A stretch of DNA of 64,000 nucleotides from Phytoseiulus persimilis. Taxonomy: Eukaryota > Arthropoda > Arachnida > Mesostigmata > Phytoseiidae. Made by a program: the position numbers and the translations under genes. Shown here in pieces: positions 9,551 through 53,580 of the stretch. The DNA lies in assembly GCA_037576195.1 (NCBI GenBank), contig CM075102.1, positions 48,790,745 to 48,854,744 of the forward strand, written 5' to 3'. Below the pieces are notes generated by a model. It made no database searches, was not told the DNA's origin, and saw only the letters and a list, made by a program, of their open reading frames with translations. Numbering within the stretch: the stretch's first letter is position 1; every line of letters begins with the position of its first letter.

Positions 9551-12500
9551 TCAGTAAGAAAAGTCCTTGTCGGCGTAGGCCTCGTGGTTGCTGCTCTCAC
9601 AGCCCGTTCTCATCTTGCGCGCCCTGACAGTTTCCGGCGAAACGGTTTTGCGATCGTAAGCCAGTCCTAAATATGCGAAAACATCGATAATGAACGTTGT
9701 TGGGTTCAGCGTGTAGGGGACCTCGGCCGCCTTGTAGTCCTGGAGAGGAAAATATTCGGCTATGAGTGGGAAATAGTGGGGGACCATTCGGAACTCGGCG
9801 AGCAGGCGCTGCATACTCAAATATGCTCGGATTCAGCAAAATAATCAGGGAAACCCGCCCAGATACGATCCTGTGGAATGAACAATCGTACCCTGGACCA
9901 GCGCCCATGCCAGCATCGCTCTTAGTGAATAAACCGGAATTCCCTTCGATGGAAGTTGAAAATTCTTCTCGAGCTTACTTGAGGGAAAGTGTGATGATAA
10001 TTGTGCCAGCCTTCGCCGATCGCGCCGATAGAGACTCCCCAGTTTTCGACCGGGTTGATATTCTTGTCATAGGGTTTGTCGCCCCACATATGCGCAGCTG
10101 AATTTACCAGCCAGGTGACATTCAACGAAACGCAGTACCTGTGGAGTAATGAGCGATCACGTGAGTACTCATCCTTGGTCCTTGGAATTATTCCGTAAGA
10201 GTTCGAGGATTTGCTGGATTTCGGGCCGAGAGATCAAGTTACACCTACCGCGTCAAAGCGCATACAATGAAAGCGTGGATCAAGCTCTCGCCCCAGAGGA
10301 ACCAGGGCACGACGGTGGGGAAGACGAAGCATGCAAATAACACTGTCTTGAGGTAATGCTTCTTCTGGAACATGACTACGGGATCAGCTTTGAGATCTGA
10401 GAGATCGATTTTGCGGCCCTTTTCGATGACATCCGGATGCTTGCGCACTAGGAGCCAGCCGACGTGTGAGAAGAAAAAGCCTCTTTTCGCATTGTGAGGA
10501 TCTGCGTTTGTTTCTGAATATTTGTGATGGACGCGATGGTCGCGAGCCCATTCATAAATATGGTTTTGAAACGCCAAGCTCTGGAGAAATGCGAGGAATA
10601 TCCGGAGGGGCAATTTGGCCTTGTAGGTCCGGTGAGCCCACAGTCGATGCGCACCAGCGGTAATGCCCAGACAAGATCCAAAGTAGAGCACGTAAGCTGG
10701 AACAAAGATATCCGTGAAAGGCTGGGACGATTTCTTGCGACCATGGAAGACTGAATATGAACGACAAGTATCGGAAGGGTGAGGAGCCGGAAAGATTGCA
10801 TGAAAAAGCGCGCGAAGCTTGATGGGAGTCGGATGTTCGCATCCTGCATACGCGGCTCTCGTGAAGAGGTCAGTGCGGAACGAAGTTTCGAAAGTCCAGT
10901 CAAGATTCCATGCAACTTCCGTAGGCTCAGGAGATCCACGATTAGAATATTGGCAGGCTATATCAGCAGGGAACAATGCGTCCATTAGAATCACTGATCT
11001 CAACCGGACGTTGGAGAATCTTTCAATGTCAAGCATACTTGGCGTCAATCCTTTCATCTCCCGGTTTGATAACCATCGACGTTCGTGAGCCAGTGATGCG
11101 TGTCGCAGCCGCTGACGGCTACAGTGAGTGACGAGCTCAATTCTGAGCCGGTTGCACATCTTCCTTTCGTATGACTATTTGTGGCCTATCGAATATTTAG
11201 TCTAGTCACATTCCTTATCAGCATGGGCCACGTCCAAGCTCTTGGATCGAATGACCTCGACGAATGCGGAATCGTTTGACGGAGGAGCTCTATCGAGATA
11301 AACAACAGTCTGATGTAAGGTTCAGATTCTCGGATGTCAGCCATCGTCATCCTAGACCTCGCTTGTCTGGCAGAGATGGAAGATATTGGAGAATTCAATC
11401 GGAGAGCAGCCATTCACGCCTGTTATATGCTCAGAATTTCTCCATGGAAATTCATCTCCTGGATACCCCGCGATGAGGATCCCTCTCGGCAAATCCGTCT
11501 TTCCAGCATAAATAAATATTGACTCCCACTTTCGCGCACATCTCGTAGGCGTGAGGGATCGTCCTCTTTCCGATGGAAAATGGATTTTCCGGAGCCTGAT
11601 CTCAACCGGTAAAGAAACACGTTGAGCCGGTATCGCGTGGGAAACTGCGCGCGTGGTCCATTGATGCGTGACAGGGGATTGTCACATGTGTTCACTTGTC
11701 AACGCCGATCACGCTCAGGACCAGATTCGTGCCGTCAGCTCTCCATTCATCGAATGGAATCCGCCGCGGATGGCTTAAAGCATATCGATTACATCTCATC
11801 GATGGACGGCGTTAAGAAGCGAAGATCCGATACTCTCGTCAGAATGCACTGCACTTTGTGCGTAGGAGCATGACAGCGAGGGCTATGACAGGAACGACTC
11901 GACACGTTTCAGGGACGAACTATAGAGCCGTTGTCCCGGTGAGCTTCGAGTCGTGGCTCGTCTGAGTCACATTTTCGCTGAGACGCTATCATCGACACGG
12001 GTTAGGTGAGCAGCCGGCCGGCAATTTCACCCATGAATCCAGGAGGAATGCAGCTACGCGCTATGACGTGCCGTGCTGAGCTTCTCCCCAGTGGCTGGGA
12101 AATCTCTGATTGTTCCCAAGAGACCGCTAGCGATTATTTCGACGTCACAATCCCTTCGATCAGCTCCGAACGGAAGGCTGTGGCTGGAATCTCACCGACA
12201 ATGCATGGGGTTTGAGTATTAACCTGATTTAAGAGGATCTGACCCTCTGCCCGATGGTATGATAAAACCGAAGACTTGGAATCCCTATTCTGGTAAATGC
12301 TCGGGGATTGAACAATCGAACAGCCCACAGATTAAGCAGCGAGAAGCTCGACCATCCATTACGTTGAATTTGCGATCGCGGCGATCTTTTCAAACTCTCC
12401 GTTGACCTTGCAATGTCTCCGAGAGTCGTTCTGAGGAAGTTCCAGTGATCAGATAAGTCCGACATGGCAGAAGAACTCTAACGAGCATTGAACGGCCACC

Positions 12501-19276: not shown

Positions 19277-20599
19277 TCAGACTGGCAATTTTTCTTTTGG
19301 AATATCAAGAAGGCGATCTTCTTTCTGCTGTAGAAACGTCAGAATTGTACCTATGGCCTGTCTGGTTGATAAAATTGACGTCCGCTCCATGGCGTTCCAG
19401 ATGAAACCCATCAAGAAAGAGAAGCCAAGGAGTAGACTCGCGAAAATGCGGGCAATGTGCAAAATGACAATGTAGGTTCCTTGAACGTAGAAGTCCACCG
19501 GTATCGAGCTGAGCAAAAGGATGAGCAGCAGGCTTGCGACACTGAGGAAGAAAATCCTATTGAACCTGAGGGAAGCCAACGTTTCGTCCATCAGTTTCAC
19601 ACTCGCCTGCAGGCAGTCTATGCGACACTTGAGGTTCTCGTCATTGAAATAATTTACGAAACCAACAGGATCGTCCCCACTGTCGAGTTGAGGACTCTTA
19701 TCTATTCGGAGGAGGGCGACGACGGGTTCGTGGTCGGAGACAGAAATACCGGATGTCGTCTTCCAGTTCGGGCTGAGATATTTCTCGCAGCGCAGGCTGA
19801 CTTTACCGCTGCCCGCTCCGTACAAGATGTAATCAATCCTCTGCCCTTCGGGACTGCATTTTCGGTCGCTGTTCGTGGTGAAAGTATTCCTCGGATGTCC
19901 GCATGTCCCAGCGACATCCGTTCCTAAGGAGCTAGATTCCTTCTCTTTGAAAGCGTCTCGGAGTCTCGAGTTGTACAGTATCACTTGGTATGGCAGATCC
20001 TCAGGTTGAGTGTTGAAGTCCCCAGCGACAATCGTATAATCACAGCTCCCGAGAAAGGTGTGCGAAACAAACTGAGAAAATTCAAACGCTTGGCTCACTC
20101 TGTGGTAAAGATAGGCGTCCTTCAACCGATTGTACTCTGCGTGAAGGTGGGTGACGTAGAGATTGGCGATCATGTCGTGATGCTGCACCTTGGCCATTCC
20201 AACAACTTTGCCGCCGAACCAGTCACCGTGATGGAATTTGTGAGCATAGCCATTGAGATTGTACTTGTAGGAGAAAATGTCGATGATTGGCCACCTCGAG
20301 AGCAAACAAACTCCGGAACCGATGACACCGGAGTGGAAATAGTGGTTGTACTGGAATACTGGTCGAGTCAGTTCGATAAGTCTCTCGAAGTCGGCCGAGC
20401 TCCAAACCTCTTGAAGGAAGACATAGTCGGTATCTGATTCCGACGTTAGGAGGAGTTCTGCGAATGCCTCATAACGCTCCTTGCGGTTCTCCGAAACTCC
20501 AACCAGGCCCCATATGTTGTAGGTGATCGCTTTCACTTTGACAGATGAACTGAATCGGCTGGAGAGGGAACGTCGCGTTAGCCCGCGAGAATGCGCCAC
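19277..20599 (-). CDS. SMPD2: Neutral sphingomyelinase (SMPD2-like)
   Basis: A single open exon of 440 residues. It begins with a short basic stretch and then the endonuclease/exonuclease/phosphatase fold: TYNIWGL, the metal-binding glutamate in FLQEVWS, GSGVCLLSRWP, YVTHLHAEY, the catalytic asparagine region AGDFNTQP, QRIDYILY and the catalytic histidine in VSDHEPV. Two closely spaced hydrophobic segments follow near residues 345-410 (FFLSVASLLLILLLSSI and IARIFASLLLGFSFLMGF), as in SMPD2, which anchors in the ER/nuclear membrane. The enzyme cuts sphingomyelin, or lyso-PAF-type lipids, to ceramide and phosphocholine and needs magnesium. All catalytic residues I can place are present. The gene lies antisense between the FAM3/ILEI exons and the GT13 exons; if these are one gene, this one is nested in its intron. 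Confidence 0.93.
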   Translation of the reverse strand: MAHSRGLTRRSLSSRFSSSVKVKAITYNIWGLVGVSENRKERYEAFAELLLTSESDTDYVFLQEVWSSADFERLIELTRPVFQYNHYFHSGVIGSGVCLLSRWPIIDIFSYKYNLNGYAHKFHHGDWFGGKVVGMAKVQHHDMIANLYVTHLHAEYNRLKDAYLYHRVSQAFEFSQFVSHTFLGSCDYTIVAGDFNTQPEDLPYQVILYNSRLRDAFKEKESSSLGTDVAGTCGHPRNTFTTNSDRKCSPEGQRIDYILYGAGSGKVSLRCEKYLSPNWKTTSGISVSDHEPVVALLRIDKSPQLDSGDDPVGFVNYFNDENLKCRIDCLQASVKLMDETLASLRFNRIFFLSVASLLLILLLSSIPVDFYVQGTYIVILHIARIFASLLLGFSFLMGFIWNAMERTSILSTRQAIGTILTFLQQKEDRLLDIPKEKLPV

Positions 20600-23533
20600 G
20601 AATCTCGAGGGTTGGCAAGCCCCGTATGCCGAAAGTTTTCAACTTGGCTTTGCGAAGTTTAATACTCGATCAAGGCAACCTAGAAATGAGTGATGGATTC
20701 TTACGGTGAATCTGATGAGGTCTTGTGGTCTATCATCTTGGTCGGAGGAGATGCGACGATGTTCGGATCCACCAATACGTCAACCAGATGGTGAGCATCC
20801 ATGACTACCGAATTGAAAGACCGCACATTAGTTCCCGTCTCGAATCTTTTCCGCAGCTCCACCGAAATCAGTGGAGCAGGACGAAATTATCAAAGTTGCT
20901 CAGAGATCCATGTTTCGCTCAATCTTCGGGACTTGACAAAACCATCCACCAGACTTACTTCTAAGAAGATTGAGAGAGATGTGCGGCTAAGAACACTCCT
21001 CTCCGGTTCGGGCTCCGACCGACGACATTGGCTGAAATTTGTCCAGGATTTTGAGAAGCGCGATCGAGCTATCAGGGCAGAGGGATCCTCGCGGCAGCCT
21101 CCAGGGGATCGCCTGCGCTGTCCGTCGAGATCAATCCGATTAAGTCGTGGGCGTGTATCAGCCAGTGATCACGTTACCGGCGGTTGAGATCACTGTAAAT
21201 CTCTGAATAACGTATGTTACTTCATATGCCCGCTTTGGTCGCTCGAGGAGAAGGACCCGATGGGAACCTCAAATTTTCAAACCAGACAGCAGCAGAGGCT
21301 TCCCGGACGAAGAACCGGACATGGTCTCTTTTCACCTGGGCTTCCGCTGCCTTGCGACTTTCCCAGCTGTGCTGATTATAAAACACAGCATGAACAAGTG
21401 CCAATATTGTGGGTACCCGTCAAACAATATTCAGGGTCACGGGGCAAGTCACCCGAGCTCTTGACATGCCAACTCCGCCAATTCCAGGAAACCGTTGCTA
21501 TGATCTTCTTGATCATTGCGCCCATCACTGGCGAAGACACAGCAGAATCAACTTGAACAGAGAAATATGATTCTCGGACGCCTCGATCGCAGCACCTCTC
21601 AGAGACCACACTCAATACAGGCGCCAGGACTGAGGAAGCTCTTCTGGGGCGACCAGCTCATTAATAGTCAAGGATGAGGAACGAAAAACGACGTCTTTGG
21701 GTTGAAGCCAGAAAGAGACTGACTCATGTCAACGTTTCGTACCAGGAAGGTTGTTGAGCAAAGCTTCCGCGGGGCACGGATGTAACGTTCGCTGTGGTGT
21801 ACGAAATTCGCTCAGAAACTCGAAGCAACGAAAGCGGTCTAAACGACCTCTCTGCTAACCACGGTGAAAAATTACGACGACTGCTCGGGGTTCCGAAAGC
21901 TTTTGATAGATGTTCGTGAGCGCGGTCATAAGGGTCGGCCTGATCAATATTGGACTGTCGCGAAAGTCGAAAGCCATTGCGAATCCTCGGACTGCCAGTG
22001 AGGGGGCCGTTCCGCGATAACAGTTCTCGATGCTTGTCAGGGCACAGGAACCCATGGATATCTGAGAGCTTGTATGAGCTGCGATCATCCAACCACCTCA
22101 CAGAGAGCGGGTCGAGTTATCTGAGATTCAGAGACCAGCAAACAGAAAATGTTGGAAGCTCAAGTCTCATCGGAACGGATTTACATCCAAATACTGAGCC
22201 ATGCTTCGTCGGCAAAGTTCGTGATGCGTCAGAAGGAGCGAACAATGATTATCCTTCTGCATCAACACGTAGGTGGAGTCGTCAAAGCCACTTGTTGGAA
22301 GAGAGAACCACGCTCCCGCAAGCTCACGAACCACTGCTTGAGACCACCCCCAAACCTGTTAGATTCCGACTCAGAGCAAGAGATGATCTGACAAATGTTC
22401 TGGACCGCACCGAAATTTTTGAAGCACAAGTTACCGCGGGAATGCGGAGAGCCTCCTTTGAGCGATTTCTCGCAGAAACTTGTCACCGCCGGAGATCGAG
22501 GTTACAAGGGGAATTTATACTGGGTCCTCTCAAGTTCTTTTTCTGTTTTCCGATGCCCAGACGAATCCTCTCGACGGAGACGTGGCGAGTCTTCTTGATG
22601 AATAGAGAAACAAGCACATTTTCCACTTTCACTGACCGCCTATTTGCGCACAAGGAAAATGATTCTCCGCATCCGATGTCCTCTTCGGATACCGCGGCAC
22701 ATATGTTGACTTTCGATGGGATTCCGGGGCCAGAACAGTGAAGAATAAGAAAGAGAACGCTTGCTTCAATTCTTTTGCAACGACTGCGTCCTTGAAGTCG
22801 CCAAATTTACCGATGGAACGACTGGAGGCGAGCGGTCGGAAAAAATGACTTTGGAACTGATCGGGAACCCAGACCTGAGCATTTTGTCTACTCACCAAAT
22901 GAGGACTGCCGGTGAACCAGCCACGCACTACTATAAATTACTAAACAGATGTCATTCGAATCGACTCTCTCTACGAAAGCACAGCAGGCTGGAGCAGCTT
23001 AGCGCCTGTGACTGGAATAGTCATCAGTGATGATCTTTCCTGCTCGACTCAGAAGAGGCCGGGCGGCACTCCATCTGTGTTGCAATCGAGGCATCCGAAC
23101 GAGACCACGATCATGGAATAAATTGCTCGATATTTTGAAGTTCAGGGGATGCCAGTCCACCCGGATCCATCTCAACACGACAACGCGGATCGAGTTCGCT
23201 TCTGCTCGAGGCATAGCGACGTAATCCCAACGTTTTGCACCGGAGATGCAAAACCAGCCCAGCACATCCTACAGCAGGTATGCCTGAACAGAGGCCGTAA
23301 GGCGTAGGAGCATTATCTCACACCCCGAGGATCCCGCAGGAACTTGCACAGCTGAAACTCAGCGGACGGCCAGCTGGCAACTGGCTGATTTTCGCGTCGC
23401 GGGTGACACAACGGATCGAAAATCATGGCGGTATGATTAGTCACCGGAAAGTCGGGCTTCGAAAAGTACAACGCATAACCCCGACGAATGCCCCGGGATC
23501 AACCTCCACTCTCCCGCGAAGGATTCTAAAATA
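20600..23533. other. Unassigned region between the sphingomyelinase and the foldback element
   Basis: No gene is supported. A plus-strand frame at 21950-22741 runs 263 codons but has no recognisable domain and biased, shadow-like composition; an overlapping frame near 22395-22560 reads more protein-like. A frame at about 20950-21187 is charged (contains DRRHWLKFVQDFEKRD) and could be an exon. None has adequate splice or homology support. Confidence 0.3.
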
Positions 23534-34241: not shown

Positions 34242-36011
34242 ACGCTAGCAGCGGAGCTCCAATTACAAGATAGGATTCCGCGGTCCTCAATAATCATACC
34301 TAATGGTCGAACTAGGGCGGACATTGACCAAAGCAGTCGATGCGACCACACATCGCACATGTACACTAACTCATTGCAGACGGACCAGAGCAACAACTGT
34401 GTCTGCCAGCAGCTATTTCCGTATCACGAGGTTTCTCCCGCTGAACTCTTCGGTGACACCTTGCCTTGTGTAGGTGACAGTGATCAAAGGATGGGAAGTT
34501 AACAACTCCAAATGCATCTTCCTCGACGAGGAAACAGTTTGAAAGCGTATCTCGGCATCACGGAATAAAGGATAACAAAATCGAGAATAAAATTCCGAAG
34601 AGCATAACATGATGTAACGTCAGTGACGTCACCTGCGGCGTATATGTTTTGCTGGCAAGGAACGCACTCGGCCGACGTGGATTCGACGCATAATGATGCG
34701 TTCGCAGCGAGAATAAAGTCACTCTCCCTTTCGGAAACTTCATGACGGAGCATTTTCTTAATTGTTCGCCGTGGCAGATCTGATTCAGCCCAGGGCAGTT
34801 CTCGGCGGGCAGGATCGAACTCCCCACTGAAGAACTAAACAGAACAGGAGAGCAGTGACACCGTTTTCAGAAGGATCGGAGGAATTCCCGATTCGATAGA
34901 ATGTTTCCAGCAGTCGGGCAACTTTTCTGTTTTCTAGGAATTGATTGGACGTACATATACGCGCTCTCGTGTCAAGTTCCAGAGTGAATTCTAAGCCCGC
35001 CAAACCTCAGCAACGGAAAACTCCGCACGAGAGACGAGTTTCCTCCAGGTTCATTCCTCCGGCTCTCAGAGAAAGTTGACCGGTTCTGTCGCTCGCGAAA
35101 ACATCATACTCGGTCTTGTGGATTCTTCTTTCACAAAGCATTTCGAGTTTGGTCGCTATGTGAAACCTTTCCTGTCATTTTCTTCGGAAACTGACTCCTG
35201 TGAGAGAAAGCTAATCGAATCGAAGGGATTTTCAATTTTCCACCACGGTAGTTTGGACAATAATCTCGTTTGAAGCAGTGAATCTTTAGCTCAAAACTAA
35301 TCTTCACAGGAATCCGGCGATTGAGTGCGCCGTGATTTCAAACTCTGGGATCTAAGCTATCGCAGGATTCTTGCGAACTCAGTTGGTTCAGTCTCGATCT
35401 CTCGTACCGTGCGAGGTATTCTCGTACAACAAAATCATGGTCTCGCCAGCGCCACATACAAACACTCGTATTTCTCTCATGGGAGTAATTAAAAGATCCG
35501 AATCATAGCAGTCGAGTGAATCTGCGCCCTAAACAGAGACAGTACTCGATGAGACACAATGTTGAGGGCTCGATGAAAAATATTCAGTTCGAAGGAAACG
35601 TCGCGGAGCTCATCGCTCTCAATCGGGATAAAAGTTACACGGGAAAGACTAAGACGAGCGTCAGAAGCATCCTGGCCGTAGCTCAGACCCGACGGGTCAT
35701 CGCTGACGAAGGAAAACTGAAACTGTGAAACCTGAGTGATTGCGTGTTTCCCGAGGGATGGGTAAGGGGGAGGGAGTTGAGTCCCAGAGCTCAGGTATGA
35801 GGCTATAGCCTCTTTTTGCTCAATCTGCGGACCTCCCTTACGAAGCTGCCAAGTTGTGTGACGACCCAAAGTTCACCTTAGCCGGAGATGACATGAACGA
35901 ATTAATTCAATCAGGACAAAAGGGTTGATATTGTGGCTTCATTCGGTCAGACGAGCTTTCGGTTTATTCCCATATCACGCGCTGACAGGCGATGCCGATC
36001 GGGGTGAGCAA
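34242..36011. other. Intergenic, no gene supported
   Basis: An AATAAA at 34564-34569 may end the TMEM35-like transcript. Minus-strand frames at 34413-35003 and 35489-35869 and a plus-strand frame at 35516-35728 were examined; none has a supported family match or splice structure. Confidence 0.35.
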
Positions 36012-36215
36012 TCAGTAGCGAGTACACCGAGCTGGTTGACTGCCGGAGGTACAATATCCAGCACCGAAACCATGAGCACGGCAGCACTCTTTGATGTGTT
36101 CAGGTCCTCTGGGACAGACTTCATTGCAGGCGCTGATTGGAGGACAAACTATGCCCTGTTGACAGAACGCGATGATCACGAAGACCATGAGCGTGCAGGA
36201 GCTGAATTTCGTCAT
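36012..36215 (-). CDS. Psychimicin-like secreted antimicrobial peptide
   Basis: A single-exon frame of 67 residues. It starts MTKFSSCTLMVFVIIAFC, a standard signal peptide with a hydrophobic core, likely cut near residue 20. The mature part has seven cysteines spaced C-x5-C-x3-C-x9-CC-x9-C-x8-C, and includes the segment NEVCPRGPEHIKECCRAHGF. Psychimicin, an antimicrobial peptide described from a bagworm moth, has DQVC-x9-CCRAHG with nearly the same spacing, so the two are probably one family. The frame is also open upstream for ten codons, but the internal ATG gives a clean signal peptide and sits about 50 nt from a TATA box. Expected role is a secreted defence peptide. The odd cysteine number is unusual and could mean one free cysteine or a dimer. 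Intact, no break seen. Confidence 0.75.
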   Translation of the reverse strand: MTKFSSCTLMVFVIIAFCQQGIVCPPISACNEVCPRGPEHIKECCRAHGFGAGYCTSGSQPARCTRY

Positions 36216-36263
36216 TGTTCGCGATGAGGTGGATTCCACGGTCACGGAAAGGTAAGAGCTTTC

Positions 36264-36270
36264 TTTATAC
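36264..36270 (-). promoter_or_regulatory. TATA box of the psychimicin-like gene
   Basis: The minus strand reads GTATAAAG about 50 nt upstream of the start codon, leaving a leader of around 20 nt if transcription begins at the usual 25-30 nt downstream. Inducible defence genes often have TATA promoters; I did not find a convincing NF-kB site. Confidence 0.45.
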
Positions 36271-44660: not shown

Positions 44661-47600
44661 TCATTCCATTAACTCGATGATTGTGGTGATTCTTTTGAGT
44701 AAGCTCGCGAAACTCGGCCGTAGATCCTTATCCGACTCCCAACAATGACGCATGATCTGACGAATCTCTGGGGGACATGCGTCGGGAGATGGCAGACGAT
44801 AGCCAGCCAGTAGCGATTGACCAAGCGCCGCGGGATCATCCCATTTCACTTCTGGCTCGCACCCGAAGGTGAAAATCTCCCACAGAGCCACGCCATAGCT
44901 CCAGACATCGCTTTTGACGGTGAACGTGTTATACAATATGGACTCCGGAGCGTACCACATGATCGGAAGATTGCGGCTCATGCTTTGTATCCGATAGTAG
45001 TCTTTGTCCAGGAGATGCGCGAGACCAAAATCGCTAAGCTTGACGCACGATTCTGACTTGACTAGAATGTTGCGTGCCGCCAGGTCTCGATGGATAATCT
45101 TCTTGCGCTCCAGATAAGCCATGGCGCTCGCGACGTCATGGCTGAACTTTATCAGCTCCTTCACGGTCAGCGTTCGTTTATTCGCTGCTAAATATGCTGA
45201 AAGCGCACCCATCCCGACGTATTCCATGATCAGCATCAAACCGTCTTCATCATTCCGTCCTATGATTTCCACGATATTTGGATGGCGGAGTTTCTTCATG
45301 ATGTCGATTTCACGCTCCAAATCCTTCTCACAAAAGTCGGCCACTGTTGATTTCATGATTTTTGCGGCAACGATTTCTTTGTCACCAGACGGCCGCGTCA
45401 GAACAGCCTTGAAAACCATTCCGAAGAAGCCTTGGCCGATGGGGTTCTCAAGTTTGAGATCGCTCCTCCTCAATTCCCAGTCCTCCTTCGCTAGCGCATC
45501 ATCAATGTCTCCTTCCAGGACTTCCTCGAAACTGTCGTCGTTCAATCTGTTATCGTCCGCCACATTGGTGTCCACAGTGTGCTGCGACGGAGCGATGGAG
45601 CTGATGGAAGACAACGTTTCGTACTCGGGATCTCTCCTTAAGAAAAACTTCAGCAGGTTATTCGTTCTCCACCCTTTCCTGCTCGCGATGCTCGATTGAC
45701 TCGCGGCGGAGTTTCTTCGCTGAAGTCTTGCAGGCTGCTCCTGGTTGACGCGGCGCAACGCTGGCAGTTGCATTGTCTTCGACCTGCAGCAACATGAAGC
45801 GAAGTATTAGAAACGGTCGATTCCTGGTCAAGATTGAGAGTCCAAGCAACCGACCCGAGCCGATATGAGCGATTTGGCGACAACTATCAAAGCATGCAAT
45901 GAAGTTGGGCTTACTCGGCGGTTTTCGCTGGAAGACACACGGCGTGAACGTCGCCAGCTTGAGTATCCATCTCTCGATCCCGTGGTGTGTCGAGTTGGTG
46001 CAGCACTCGGTTGATACTTCGAACGATTTCGTTCGGTGCGCTGCGCTCGTCGAGATTTCTTTCCCAGCAGCCAGTGATCACTGAGTGGAACCCTTCAGGA
46101 ACCTCTGCGACCGACAGACGTTTCCCCGATGCGAAGAACTCCGTTGCGTTCTCACCAGATATCACATCCAACGGGCTTCTACCCCCGTGGAAAATCTCCC
46201 ACAGAGTCGTTCCCAGTGCGTATACATCTGCCTTCTGTGCGTGGGCGACTGATTCCAGGTCTGGAAAGTGTTCCGGTGCGATCCAGGGCGTGTCCTGATG
46301 GCTGTACACCGGGGGTCCGGGCTCCCCCAGCTTGACTGTGAATGGACGGAGCGATCCTTCGACGACGAAAGCGGAGCGGCAACGAATTTTACCGTGAACG
46401 AAGCCATTCTCCTCGAGATACCAAACCGCTTTGGCGAGGCACAGAGCCGCGTTGCCGAGGTCAAATGCACTCATGCCTCCCCCGCAGTCTCTAGAAAGGA
46501 AAAGAAATCAGTTAACGGGACACTTTTTCTCTTCATTCGTTGCGCTACAGGGTAAAGTAGAGCAGACTCGAACCCACAACTGATCCGGACTGCCTGGAGT
46601 CCGCCACGCGATCGGGAACAATTTCACAGTAATACAACAACGTACCTCAGGTACTTGTCAAGAGATCCCAGGGGCATATATTGGGCTGCCAAACAGACTC
46701 GCGGTGCCACTCCAAGCCCAATTATTGGCACGAAGTTGGGGCTTCTCCATAACAGAGCGTCGCTTGCTTTGCGTAGGAAGCGCCTGATCATACGAGGATC
46801 GTCGTCCTGAAGGACTCTACACACCACCGCAGAACGTTCGTATGTTCCCTGGAGATGTAAATGATACATCAAGATCGAAGCGTCTGAGCCGGTTTCGAGA
46901 CCTGGCTTGTACTCAGCTTCATGTACACCATGTTATCTAATTCCAATTACAGGGATCGACCTTGGGACGAGCCGCTTAGGAGATCTCCGCCTACCTTGAG
47001 AACTTTCTGCTGGTTATATGTGCTCCCGAGCATTGGCAGCTCAAATTTGAACTTCCGGAAATCCAAGGGCTTCGCATCGGGTTCTGTTTCGTCTACCGAA
47101 TCTGCGAGAGAGATCTTTCTGCAGAGCTGTAAGCCGGTCTTGTCGCGATCGTTCGGCACCAGCTGATGCATCGGTTTCCCGTACGTGATCTTGGCTAGGA
47201 TCAAAGCTTCCAAGCTCTGGAAGACGAGTTGATCAAGGTATGCCACCTCACTGAATTGTCCCTCCTCGTTTTCGATGAGTTTGTGCGTTTCGTATCGGCC
47301 GTCACCCGAGAGTGCATCCACATGGTAAACCCTGTAGGCAAGCTGGTCCTGTCTCATCATATAGCAGCCCTGAAAGCAAAAACTATGATGACCGCCGCAC
47401 TTATTCCTTTTGAATGCGGATGACGTAAACCAGTGGTTTTCGCTGGTTTGGAACTACCTAGGAACTCAAACAAAGCTTCACCTCGCTCGTCTTGTTCTCA
47501 GAAAGCTTCTTACGAGCTGTAGAGCCTCTGATTGGACCATGGATTTTCCGTCTTCTCATTGCCACAATCGAAGGTGGTTGGACTTCGCTACATAGGCACG

Positions 47601-49104
47601 CCGAGAAGCGTTCAGTCATCCGGTAGTAACCATCGAGGAGAGTGCACAGCTCGGTCAGGTTTCGCTCCTTGAGCAACATCATGATTGGTTGTTCATCGCG
47701 AATGTGTATTTCAACGGAATTCGCATCCAGGGGGAGTAGATAACTCATCTGCGACATCGGGAATACATCACCTGGCATCTTGTCTTGGAAAATCTTCAAG
47801 AACGGGCCTTCATTCGCTTGAGGTGTACCGTAGGACAAGTGCCCGACAATGACCTGCACCTCGTAGGTCTTGCCGTCCCTCACGATTTGGGCCTGAGAAA
47901 CGGAAACTCGGGTATTAGTCAAACCCTTGGGAGCGGATGGCGAACAGGAAGCGGCGACGTGCTGGGCGGCCTGCACTTACCTCGAAATGTTCCTGACGGC
48001 TGCCAAGAAGCACTTCGCTCACACCGTTTATGAAAGCGGTTTTTATGGCCGAGAGCTCAAGGTAACAGTCATTGAAACATTTTTTCACACAGAGTATGAA
48101 ATCTTTTTTGACCACTTTTTTCTTCCACCAGAAGAATTTCCAGGTGGCGGGCAGAGCACTTGACTCCAAGAGTTCCGCAGTTTTCTCATCCGTGGGGGCC
48201 TCATTTTTCTCAATAAGTTGCTTCACGTAGTCCATGGCCACTAGGCCCATGAGTTGGCTGACCAGCTCGTGGCTGTATTCTTTCACCTCAAACTCATTGA
48301 AGAGGTAGTTCAGCATTTGGTGATAGTAGAGGTTGAGAGTATTGGGTTCTTCCAAGAGTCCAGAGTGGATCGGATGGAATCTGGAATATTCACATTTGCT
48401 CCACCTGATTGAAATGTTCAGGAAATGGGTGAACTTCGATTGCTCTCAATTTCGATCGGTCAGAACGGACTCGTTTCTCATTCTGCAAGATGAGCTCACC
48501 TGATTCGCAGCTGGAGCTCGTGGCTCACTCCATCTCCTCCAACAGTTTCATGGGCACCCAAATACGCTCTCTTGTCGGAGTCGTACAGAGCTGTGAGATA
48601 CCTGAAAGGTGGATTGCTGGAGGTTGGTGATCGGAAAAAGCGACGCCGACATCCTGAGGGCTGGAGTCGTAGTTTCGCGAACCTTCTCAGTGATCGTTCA
48701 TCGATGTCGACGAGGACGACGATAGGAGAGATGGAAGTACACTCCATGTAGCTTAGCTACTACCTTGAGCACGACACGTGAGAACCGGTCGAAAAAAGAA
48801 GTATCTGTCTCTCTGACGGCGAGTGTACAATAAATAATCCGAGTTGACCATACATCAAATGCATACGGCAAAAAATCAAACACGGCAATTTTCGAATTCC
48901 AATGTTTTCAGGCAGACATTTAGGATAGGAGACCGTACTGTTATGGCCAAACATGATCGTTCCAGAGAAACCTCAGACTTACCGGTACACTGGAGGAACA
49001 CTATTGAGCTCGCAAGCTCTCTGAATGAGTTCGTCGACAACATGTGCTGTTTCCCCTTGTAACCGAACCAAGGGGATAGATTTCGTCACAACGAAGTCCA
49101 CCAT
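44661..49104 (-). CDS. JAK: Janus kinase (JAK) non-receptor tyrosine kinase
   Basis: Eight exons, 49104-48983, 48601-48500, 48380-47981, 47892-47482, 47369-46995, 46911-46646, 46490-45915 and 45783-44661, join exactly in phase to 1124 residues, the usual JAK length. A FERM domain comes first (YLTALYDSDKRAYLGAHETV; ELCTLLDGYYRM), then a divergent SH2 domain (LAYRVYHVDAL), the JH2 pseudokinase and the JH1 kinase. JH1 is complete: glycine loop IGQGFFGMV, lysine in VAAKIMK, HRDLAARN, DFGLA, tandem activation-loop tyrosines in DKDYYRIQ, and APES. JH2 has HGKIRCRSA in place of the HRD loop and LGEPG in place of DFG, and no lysine at the VAIK position (AVVCRVL). JAK binds cytokine receptors through FERM-SH2 and phosphorylates STATs. 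The start is the first ATG after a likely 5' UTR intron acceptor at 49110. Confidence 0.95.
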
Positions 49105-51440: not shown

Positions 51441-53580
51441 ATGACGGAGAGCAGCTATGAAAGTGCGCCTGAAGACAGTGGCACTTGGAGCGGATCGGAG
51501 GATGGGAGCGTGTTGACAGGCGGAAGACAGCCTACGACAGCCTATTTCCTTTGGATGATGAAAAATCGGAAGCGAATCAAAAAAGAAAATCCTGGTATGT
51601 CCATTACCGAACTCGCCAAAGAATGTGGCAAACAGTGGAGCCAGCTTCCTGACAAAGCAAAATGGGAGAAACGGAACAATAAGCTCAGGAAAAAGTGGCG
51701 AGAAGCTAAAGAAAAGGTCCGTTCGTGATTTCACGCAGATATATGTCCTACTCATTGATCTCGCTTCTTATTTGCGAATCTGCTTTCCTGATTGAGAGGT
51801 TGCTGCGATCGATGATCTTCGATTACAGGGCACTGAGGGTGATTTCGATACCGCTAGCCAGGGTGACGAGGATGCCGAGTCGGAAAAACCGATCAGCAAA
51901 AGCCAAGCCAACAGCGGAGATTCGGATTCCGAAGATAACAGTGGGTCTGAGAGTAGAGATAAGGAGTCTAAAGATAAAAAGTCTGAGCGCAAAGATATCA
52001 AGTCGAAAGACAAAACAAAGAAGTCCAAGGACAAGGATAAAAAGCTCAAAGGCAAAGATGGGAGGTCCGGGGACAAACATGGGAATTCGGAGAACAAAAA
52101 AAAGAAACTCAAAGACAGGAATATAGGTGGAGATAAGAAGCTCAAAGAGAAGGATGGAGAGCCTAAGGTCGAGGACAGAAAGTCGAAGAGCAAGGATGGA
52201 AAGTCAAAGGACAGGGATGAGAAGTTCAAACAGAAGAGTAAAAAGACCAAGGATGAAAAGGCCTCCGATAAGCATGGGAAGCCCAAGAACAGAGTTGGAA
52301 AGTCCAAAGACGAGGATGCAACGTCCAAGGACAAGAATAAAAAGTCCGAAGAAAGGGGGTCTGGGGGTGATAACAAAAAAGGGAAGAGAGCTAGAGCAAA
52401 AGATGAAAAGTCAACAGGCAAGAAGGGCGGGGAAATTGCGACCAAGGGTGAGAAAACGAAGAGCAGGAACAAGAAAGGAGCGGAAGCTGGAGCCGCGGGT
52501 CGAAGGCTCAGTGAGAGAACCGAGCGTGCAGATGAGGCTACAAGTGAAGAGGTTCGAGCAAAGAAGAGAGCGAAAGGTGCAGTCGGAGGTGATAAATCCA
52601 GAGGCAAAGACGAGAAAGTACGTGACAACGCGGCCAAGGTCGGGAAAACTGAAGACATTCCCAAGAAAAAAGGGAAGAAAGGGGTCGACAACACGGGGAC
52701 GAAAGCTGCAACAGGCAAGATTGAATCGTCTAGCAAAGAGAAAAAACGAGAGAGAGACGTGTCCAAGAAGCAAAAATCTGAGGGCAAGGAAACGAAACGA
52801 GCGAAAATGGACACGCAGAGCAAGAAGTCCGGGAAAAAGGGGCAGGCTCCGGAGCTCGAGGCCAAGAAGAAGCAAGGCCCAAAGCCCGAGGCCAAGGGGA
52901 AAAAGAATTCACGGCAAGTATTCGCGGCTGAAGCAGCTCCCAAATCAAAGACTGCAGTCCCAAAAGGAGATAATAATAGTCAGAAACCCAAGAAGTCCAA
53001 GAATGACGACAAGAAGCGTCCACGGGAGAATTCATCTGATGACGTTGTGTCTGACAAAAAAGGAACAAAAAAGAACAAAAACGCCGCTGCAATGGAGAAG
53101 CCGACCAGATCGAAGCGGCCAGAGGAAAAACAGGGAAAAGGCCAGACCGCTGATCGGAAATCTCCCAAAGCGAGGAGCGGAGCTCCGACAAACAAGTTGG
53201 GAGGTTCGGAGGTCAAGAACAAAATTCAATCTAGAGGCGACAACGCAGCTCAAAAGCAATCCAAACCAGGCAGTAAGGATAAGATTTCGTCGATGAAGAA
53301 GTCATCCCCCGGAAAACGATCGAAATCTGGAAATAAAAAGGATAAGCTTTCAGCGGACGATTCCTCGCAAGATCAGCTGGAGCAACCAGGTGTTGAGGGC
53401 AAAGGAATAGCACAGGGCGAATCATCCGAAAACGTTCCTGCAGAGCCTGGAGAGGATATGGGAAAAAACCGTGCGGATGAATCACTCGATGATAAATCAT
53501 CGGAAACGAAAGATGAGGCGAAGGAACCACCGGCAGAAGGATCATCTCATGACCAGCTAGCCGAAACTGGGGCTAAATGA
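51441..53580 (+). CDS. HMG-box protein 1 with long lysine/serine-rich tail
   Basis: Two exons, 51441-51716 and 51829-53580, give 675 residues. Exon 1 has an HMG box reading TTAYFLWMMKNRKRIKKENP then GMSITELAKECGKQWSQL, closest to the box of SSRP1, the FACT subunit (LW-NASREKIKSDHPGISITDL). Exon 2 is one open frame of 583 codons, low-complexity and very rich in K, S, D, E and G, with short repeats of the type SKDK/SKDG; near the end it becomes acidic and ends EPPAEGSSHDQLAETGAK. The HMG box bends DNA; the basic tail probably binds DNA or histones, so a nuclear chromatin role is likely. It lacks the SSRP1 N-terminal PH domains. The start follows a CTCTAG acceptor by two bases, implying a 5' UTR intron. 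Long frames on other strands here are by-products of the biased composition. Confidence 0.85.

Follow-up and report, generated by a model that had tools for sequence, protein, structure and literature searches.

We analysed a 64,000-nt stretch of the Phytoseiulus persimilis genome (assembly GCA_037576195.1, contig CM075102.1, positions 48,790,745 to 48,854,744), called here the window and numbered from its first letter. Its minus strand carries a diapausin-family precursor gene at 36012–36215, a single open exon with its ATG at 36215 and the 67-residue translation MTKFSSCTLMVFVIIAFCQQGIVCPPISACNEVCPRGPEHIKECCRAHGFGAGYCTSGSQPARCTRY. The assignment draws on the reading frame itself, on matches to Pfam family PF08036 and to PDB structure 2e2f, and on the dN/dS ratio, each described below. 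Residues 1–24 at most (36144–36215, minus strand) form a predicted signal peptide region. The N-terminus is visibly hydrophobic, and a low-confidence structure model and the alignment of paralogues contribute to the prediction; the cut sites within it are putative. Residues 30–64 (36024–36128, minus strand) hold a six-cysteine core, C-x3-C-x9-CC-x9-C-x8-C, recognized by cysteine spacing, alignment and a pattern scan. The core carries little net charge, +2 in the window peptide and 0 in the nearest copy elsewhere in the genome.

Upstream, TATAAAG occupies 36263–36269 on the minus strand, with its first base 54 nt before the ATG. A TATAWA in a comparable slot is seen at about 0.7% of random places in the window. 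This element is not conserved among the paralogues: of the nine intact copies in the genome, two (the window copy and one other) have TATAWA between −80 and −30, and seven do not. Downstream, an AATAAA poly(A) signal at 35963–35968 (minus strand) begins 43 nt past the stop codon. Every intact copy (9/9) has an AATAAA at most 62 nt from the first base of its stop codon, against a background of 345 in 20000 random 63-nt stretches of the window. The 67-residue frame, the C-x3-C-x9-CCRAHG motif (CCRAHG lies within the core) and the TATA box had all been named in the original prediction from sequence, and each is present at this locus.

Two further searches concerned regulation and structured RNA. 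Sites resembling kB elements numbered two in nine 500-nt upstream stretches, with about 0.39 expected per stretch, none above chance; immune induction is therefore not indicated. Rfam gave no match within the window.

Several other open frames lie in the window. At 44661–46507 on the minus strand there is a full tyrosine kinase domain with a second, weaker kinase domain before it, an arrangement as in Janus kinases that would suggest a JAK label. Open frames go on to 48445, and the two at 47458–48445 have no Pfam match. The open frame at 51796–53580 encodes 594 residues; it is repetitive, rich in lysine and serine and strongly strand-skewed, and Pfam returned nothing for it. The minus-strand frame at 19277–20638 combines an endonuclease/phosphatase domain with a hydrophobic tail, possibly neutral-sphingomyelinase-like, and that at 10245–11174, also minus, has a fatty acid desaturase domain.

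Family membership and fold

On sequence evidence, the window gene encodes a diapausin-family peptide. Searched against Pfam with an E limit of 10, the peptide matches a single family, PF08036 (diapausin antimicrobial peptides); its score of 34.3 bits clears the cut-off of 25 (E 2.4e-8). Of the solved structures, the diapausin 2e2f matches best (E 7.1e-5). The original prediction had likened the peptide to psychimicin, which pointed to the right family: in addition to the two matches above, the blapstin paper lists psychimicin, spodomicin and diapause-specific peptide as diapausins (PMC10269622). We aligned 10 sequences, namely eight of the nine mite copies, blapstin and part of 2e2f, each with a PF08036 match at E 0.001 or below. 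Invariant columns over the 10 include C30, C34, C44, C45, A47, H48, G49 and C55.

A chance origin of the core had been named as a way for the homology to fail. A six-frame scan of the window finds the pattern C-x3-C-x9-CC-x9-11-C-x6-9-C a single time, and it is absent from 30 windows shuffled in 2-nt blocks; with PF08036 aligning as well, the core is not a chance product. The Pfam E-value, the shuffled windows and the nine copies under selection together rule out a chance motif. A defensin of the CS-alpha-beta type was also rejected, as the window peptide has an adjacent CC and no C-x-C, and Pfam returned no defensin family at E up to 10. The springtail defensin motif is published as C-x5-6-C-x3-C-x9-10-C-x7-C-x1-C (PMC10051947).

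The peptide shares the C-x3-C-x9-CC frame and the CCRAHG core with the PF08036 members 2e2f (from Gastrophysa atrocyanea), psychimicin, spodomicin and blapstin, and like them it has a short precursor with a hydrophobic start. By analogy it is probably secreted and cysteine-bridged. A diapausin fold is expected to have two helices and a three-stranded sheet. The single-sequence structure model of the window peptide is poor (mean pLDDT 56.6), with helices at 6–19, 27–33 and 41–47 and no strands, and does not confirm the fold.

Similarity beyond the cysteine frame is limited. BLASTP aligns the window peptide with blapstin over 24 residues only (46% identical), and the last two loops are x10 and x6 in blapstin against x9 and x8 here, so that the window C5–C6 loop is 2 residues longer (PMC10269622). 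The motif given for collembolan diapausins, C-x3-C-x9-14-CC-x9-11-C-x6-9-C, includes the window peptide (PMC10051947).

Copies in the mite genome

The genome searched comprises 181 Mb in 127 contigs. Searching it with the window peptide (E limit 1) gave 13 matches, and PF08036 (E limit 10) gave 20, nine of them over the cut-off. Each of these nine (L001–L009 below) has an intact frame, between 67 and 81 residues long. The window copy lies at 48.8 Mb on contig C2; single intact copies lie at 42.6 Mb on C1, at 21.8 Mb and 7.3 Mb on C3, and on C11, a 25-kb contig. Pairs of intact copies lie at 15.69 Mb on C1 and at 27.36–27.38 Mb on C2. Thus the peptide, presented in the original prediction as if it stood alone, is one of nine. 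There are also two decayed relics: that at C1:15695112 lacks one cysteine and is interrupted by a stop within the signal region, and that at C2:27373934 has lost one cysteine. The count of nine leaves out the 11 of 20 PF08036 matches under the cut-off and four of the 13 peptide-search matches, relics included. The cysteine pattern was absent from the weak matches inspected, which were C4:18686849, C1:18231712 and several of the PF08036 matches below the cut-off, a part of the 11 only.

The copies vary outside the shared frame. In L003 and L004 a basic tail of 17 residues follows the last cysteine, compared with 3 residues in the window copy. In L007–L009 the last loop is 14 residues long, so that their last two loops read x10 and x14; the x14 loop is outside the collembolan x6–9 range (PMC10051947).

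Contamination does not explain the family. Copies sit on contigs of 54.7, 52.0 and 38.9 Mb, and the window copy shares C2 with a locus matched by RpS2 primers, which encodes a Ribosomal_S5 domain. The host had been guessed from the letters alone to be a mite or tick relative, and published P. persimilis primers agree with a chelicerate genome: of the 22 mite primers printed in a paper on RNAi by soaking in this species (PMC9656875), 12 were tested and 10 match exactly. All four for RpS2 (the qPCR pair is labelled PpRpS20 in the source table) and all four for RpL11 do so in facing pairs, each gene at a single locus, and two of four for tra-2 do so at one locus. The remaining tra-2 primers have no match in that 3-kb locus (6 mismatches at best); across the genome the forward dsRNA primer has 2-mismatch sites only, four against two for the control, and both primers may lie on other exons or span a junction. 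A nematode host was rejected: the TIM protein scores 354.6–366 bits with its seven best-ranked PDB sequences, which include 2i9e (beetle) and 3th6 (tick), against 304 with 1mo0 (worm), and the primer matches decided the matter. COX1 was not found in the assembly. The four largest contigs (54.7, 52.0, 38.9 and 28.1 Mb) would fit four chromosomes; three are given for the related N. cucumeris.

Cysteine number and signal-peptide cut

The original prediction counted seven cysteines, one more than in the moth peptide, and suggested a new disulfide plan. The precursor has nine, at positions 7, 18, 24, 30, 34, 44, 45, 55 and 64. A cut after C18 would leave seven and a cut after C24 the usual six, so the count of seven holds for one of the two cut sites. 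C24 directly precedes the core, within IVCPPISAC, and is present in L001–L004 and absent from L005–L009.

In two other copy groups the paralogue alignment places the likely cut after TVA or TEA, read by the −3, −1 rule; this would correspond roughly to a cut after C24 in the window copy. Such a cut would put an unfavourable proline next, while a cut after C18 would retain C24 in the mature peptide. A new disulfide plan is accordingly not established, since the extra cysteine occurs in four of nine copies and sits at a likely signal-peptide cut. These four differ in their extra pre-core cysteine from the usual six of diapausins.

Selection and age

Between the window copy and its nearest copy, dN is 0.08 and dS 1.78 (dN/dS 0.045). 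We compared all 36 pairs of copies, each whole and from residue 25 on, by the Nei–Gojobori method. The ratio lies between 0.03 and 0.36 in the 51 of 72 comparisons where it is defined; dS could not be computed in the other 21, as happens at saturation. The nine-copy family is under purifying selection.

With 1.5-kb flanks included, the window copy resembles the other copies along its coding sequence and for no more than 14 nt upstream of it; the flanks do not align. L003 and L004 still share flanks, as do L007–L009, and these are therefore younger copy groups. The window copy is separated from every other copy by a dS that exceeds 0.7 or is saturated, so the family's arrival is not recent.

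Discussion

We read the locus, with a probability of about 0.75, as a functional P. persimilis diapausin with a signal peptide, secreted, held by three disulfides and most likely active against fungi as an effector at their cell surface. The gene is intact, ends in a poly(A) signal and belongs to a nine-copy PF08036 family under purifying selection, while secretion, disulfide pairing and antifungal action are carried over from relatives. The precursor would be made with a signal peptide and secreted. The mature peptide would then fold, with disulfides C1–C3, C2–C5 and C4–C6 predicted by homology, into the compact diapausin fold and may act on the fungal cell surface. Among relatives, the beetle peptide blapstin has minimal inhibitory concentrations of 7 uM for Candida albicans and 5.3 uM for Trichophyton rubrum, with membrane damage (PMC10269622).

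The chief functional rival is that the peptide is secreted mainly to block ion channels and less as an antifungal; in the saliva of a piercing predator it could quiet prey. Diapausins are stated to block N-type calcium channels (PMC3175473, PMC8145965), one ranks in the top 20 of toxin-candidate genes by expression in stinging caterpillar hairs (PMC8145965), and the host here is a predatory mite. Yet blapstin was tested as an antifungal and caused little haemolysis and little harm to human cells (PMC10269622), and nothing in the window sequence points to salivary glands; we consider this reading improbable. It is a long shot that the copies form a mite-specific diapausin branch in which a subgroup with a seventh mature cysteine would make disulfide-linked dimers, as the predator's secreted channel-blocking or antifungal agent. 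Finally, the frame might be a non-functional relic left open after gene duplication. Copies of this family do die: both relics are missing a cysteine, and one of them has a stop as well. However, the window copy keeps an intact frame, all six core cysteines and a poly(A) signal, and its low dN/dS to the nearest copy persists while the flanks have diverged beyond alignment, which makes decay very unlikely.

A separate matter, compatible with an antifungal effector, is origin. Diapausins have been reported from beetles, moths, flies, springtails and free-living nematodes, and in part from an iridovirus (PMC10051947, PMC10506718, PMC3175473). Springtails have 23 genes in five species, with 1 to 10 per species (PMC10051947). 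Nematode diapausins, 116 genes in one survey (PMC10506718), have six cysteines at conserved positions and are multi-copy, as in the mite; that survey places them in certain free-living soil nematodes only, and a beetle origin is argued for them (PMC10506718, PMC3175473). Horizontal transfer from insect to mite, direct or through a virus, followed by multiplication, would suit this patchy distribution, and there is precedent in the transfer from beetles proposed for Pristionchus and in the related stretch of the iridovirus (PMC10506718, PMC3175473). Several observations weigh against it. No relative was found in IMG/VR or the GTDB genome set, neither of which holds insects. GC3 is 0.51–0.69 in the nine copies, compared with 0.60–0.63 in four other genes of the same genome, and the synonymous distances speak against a recent event. 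The shortness of the peptide, with about 35 shared columns, and the two non-mite sequences do not allow a decisive tree. We regard transfer as unlikely.

The original prediction offered an extension of the family's range or a transfer. The first part stands in a modified form: the known range already went beyond moths, no report from a mite or other chelicerate was found, and no transfer is visible. The literature search reached papers on mites and Acari incompletely and extended neither to subscription journals nor to protein databases, so an earlier report or database entry of a mite diapausin may exist. Within the portions available, no mite diapausin is reported in PMC10269622, PMC10051947, PMC10506718, PMC3175473, PMC8145965, PMC11180206, PMC6889759, PMC9079694, PMC6902594 or PMC6275457. 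As far as this literature goes, the diapausin kind is known and Chelicerata is new as a branch.

Because P. persimilis is in wide use for biological control, how well it resists fungi matters in practice. A nine-copy diapausin family is a concrete candidate immune effector of such a mite. A relative in the same mite family has been reported to lack homologues of fly antimicrobial peptides; a survey built on fly peptides can miss a mite effector such as a diapausin. With the copies described here, the range of diapausins in the literature searched, so far hexapods and nematodes, extends into Chelicerata, which bears on the question of whether this is an ancient arthropod family or one that has moved between lines.
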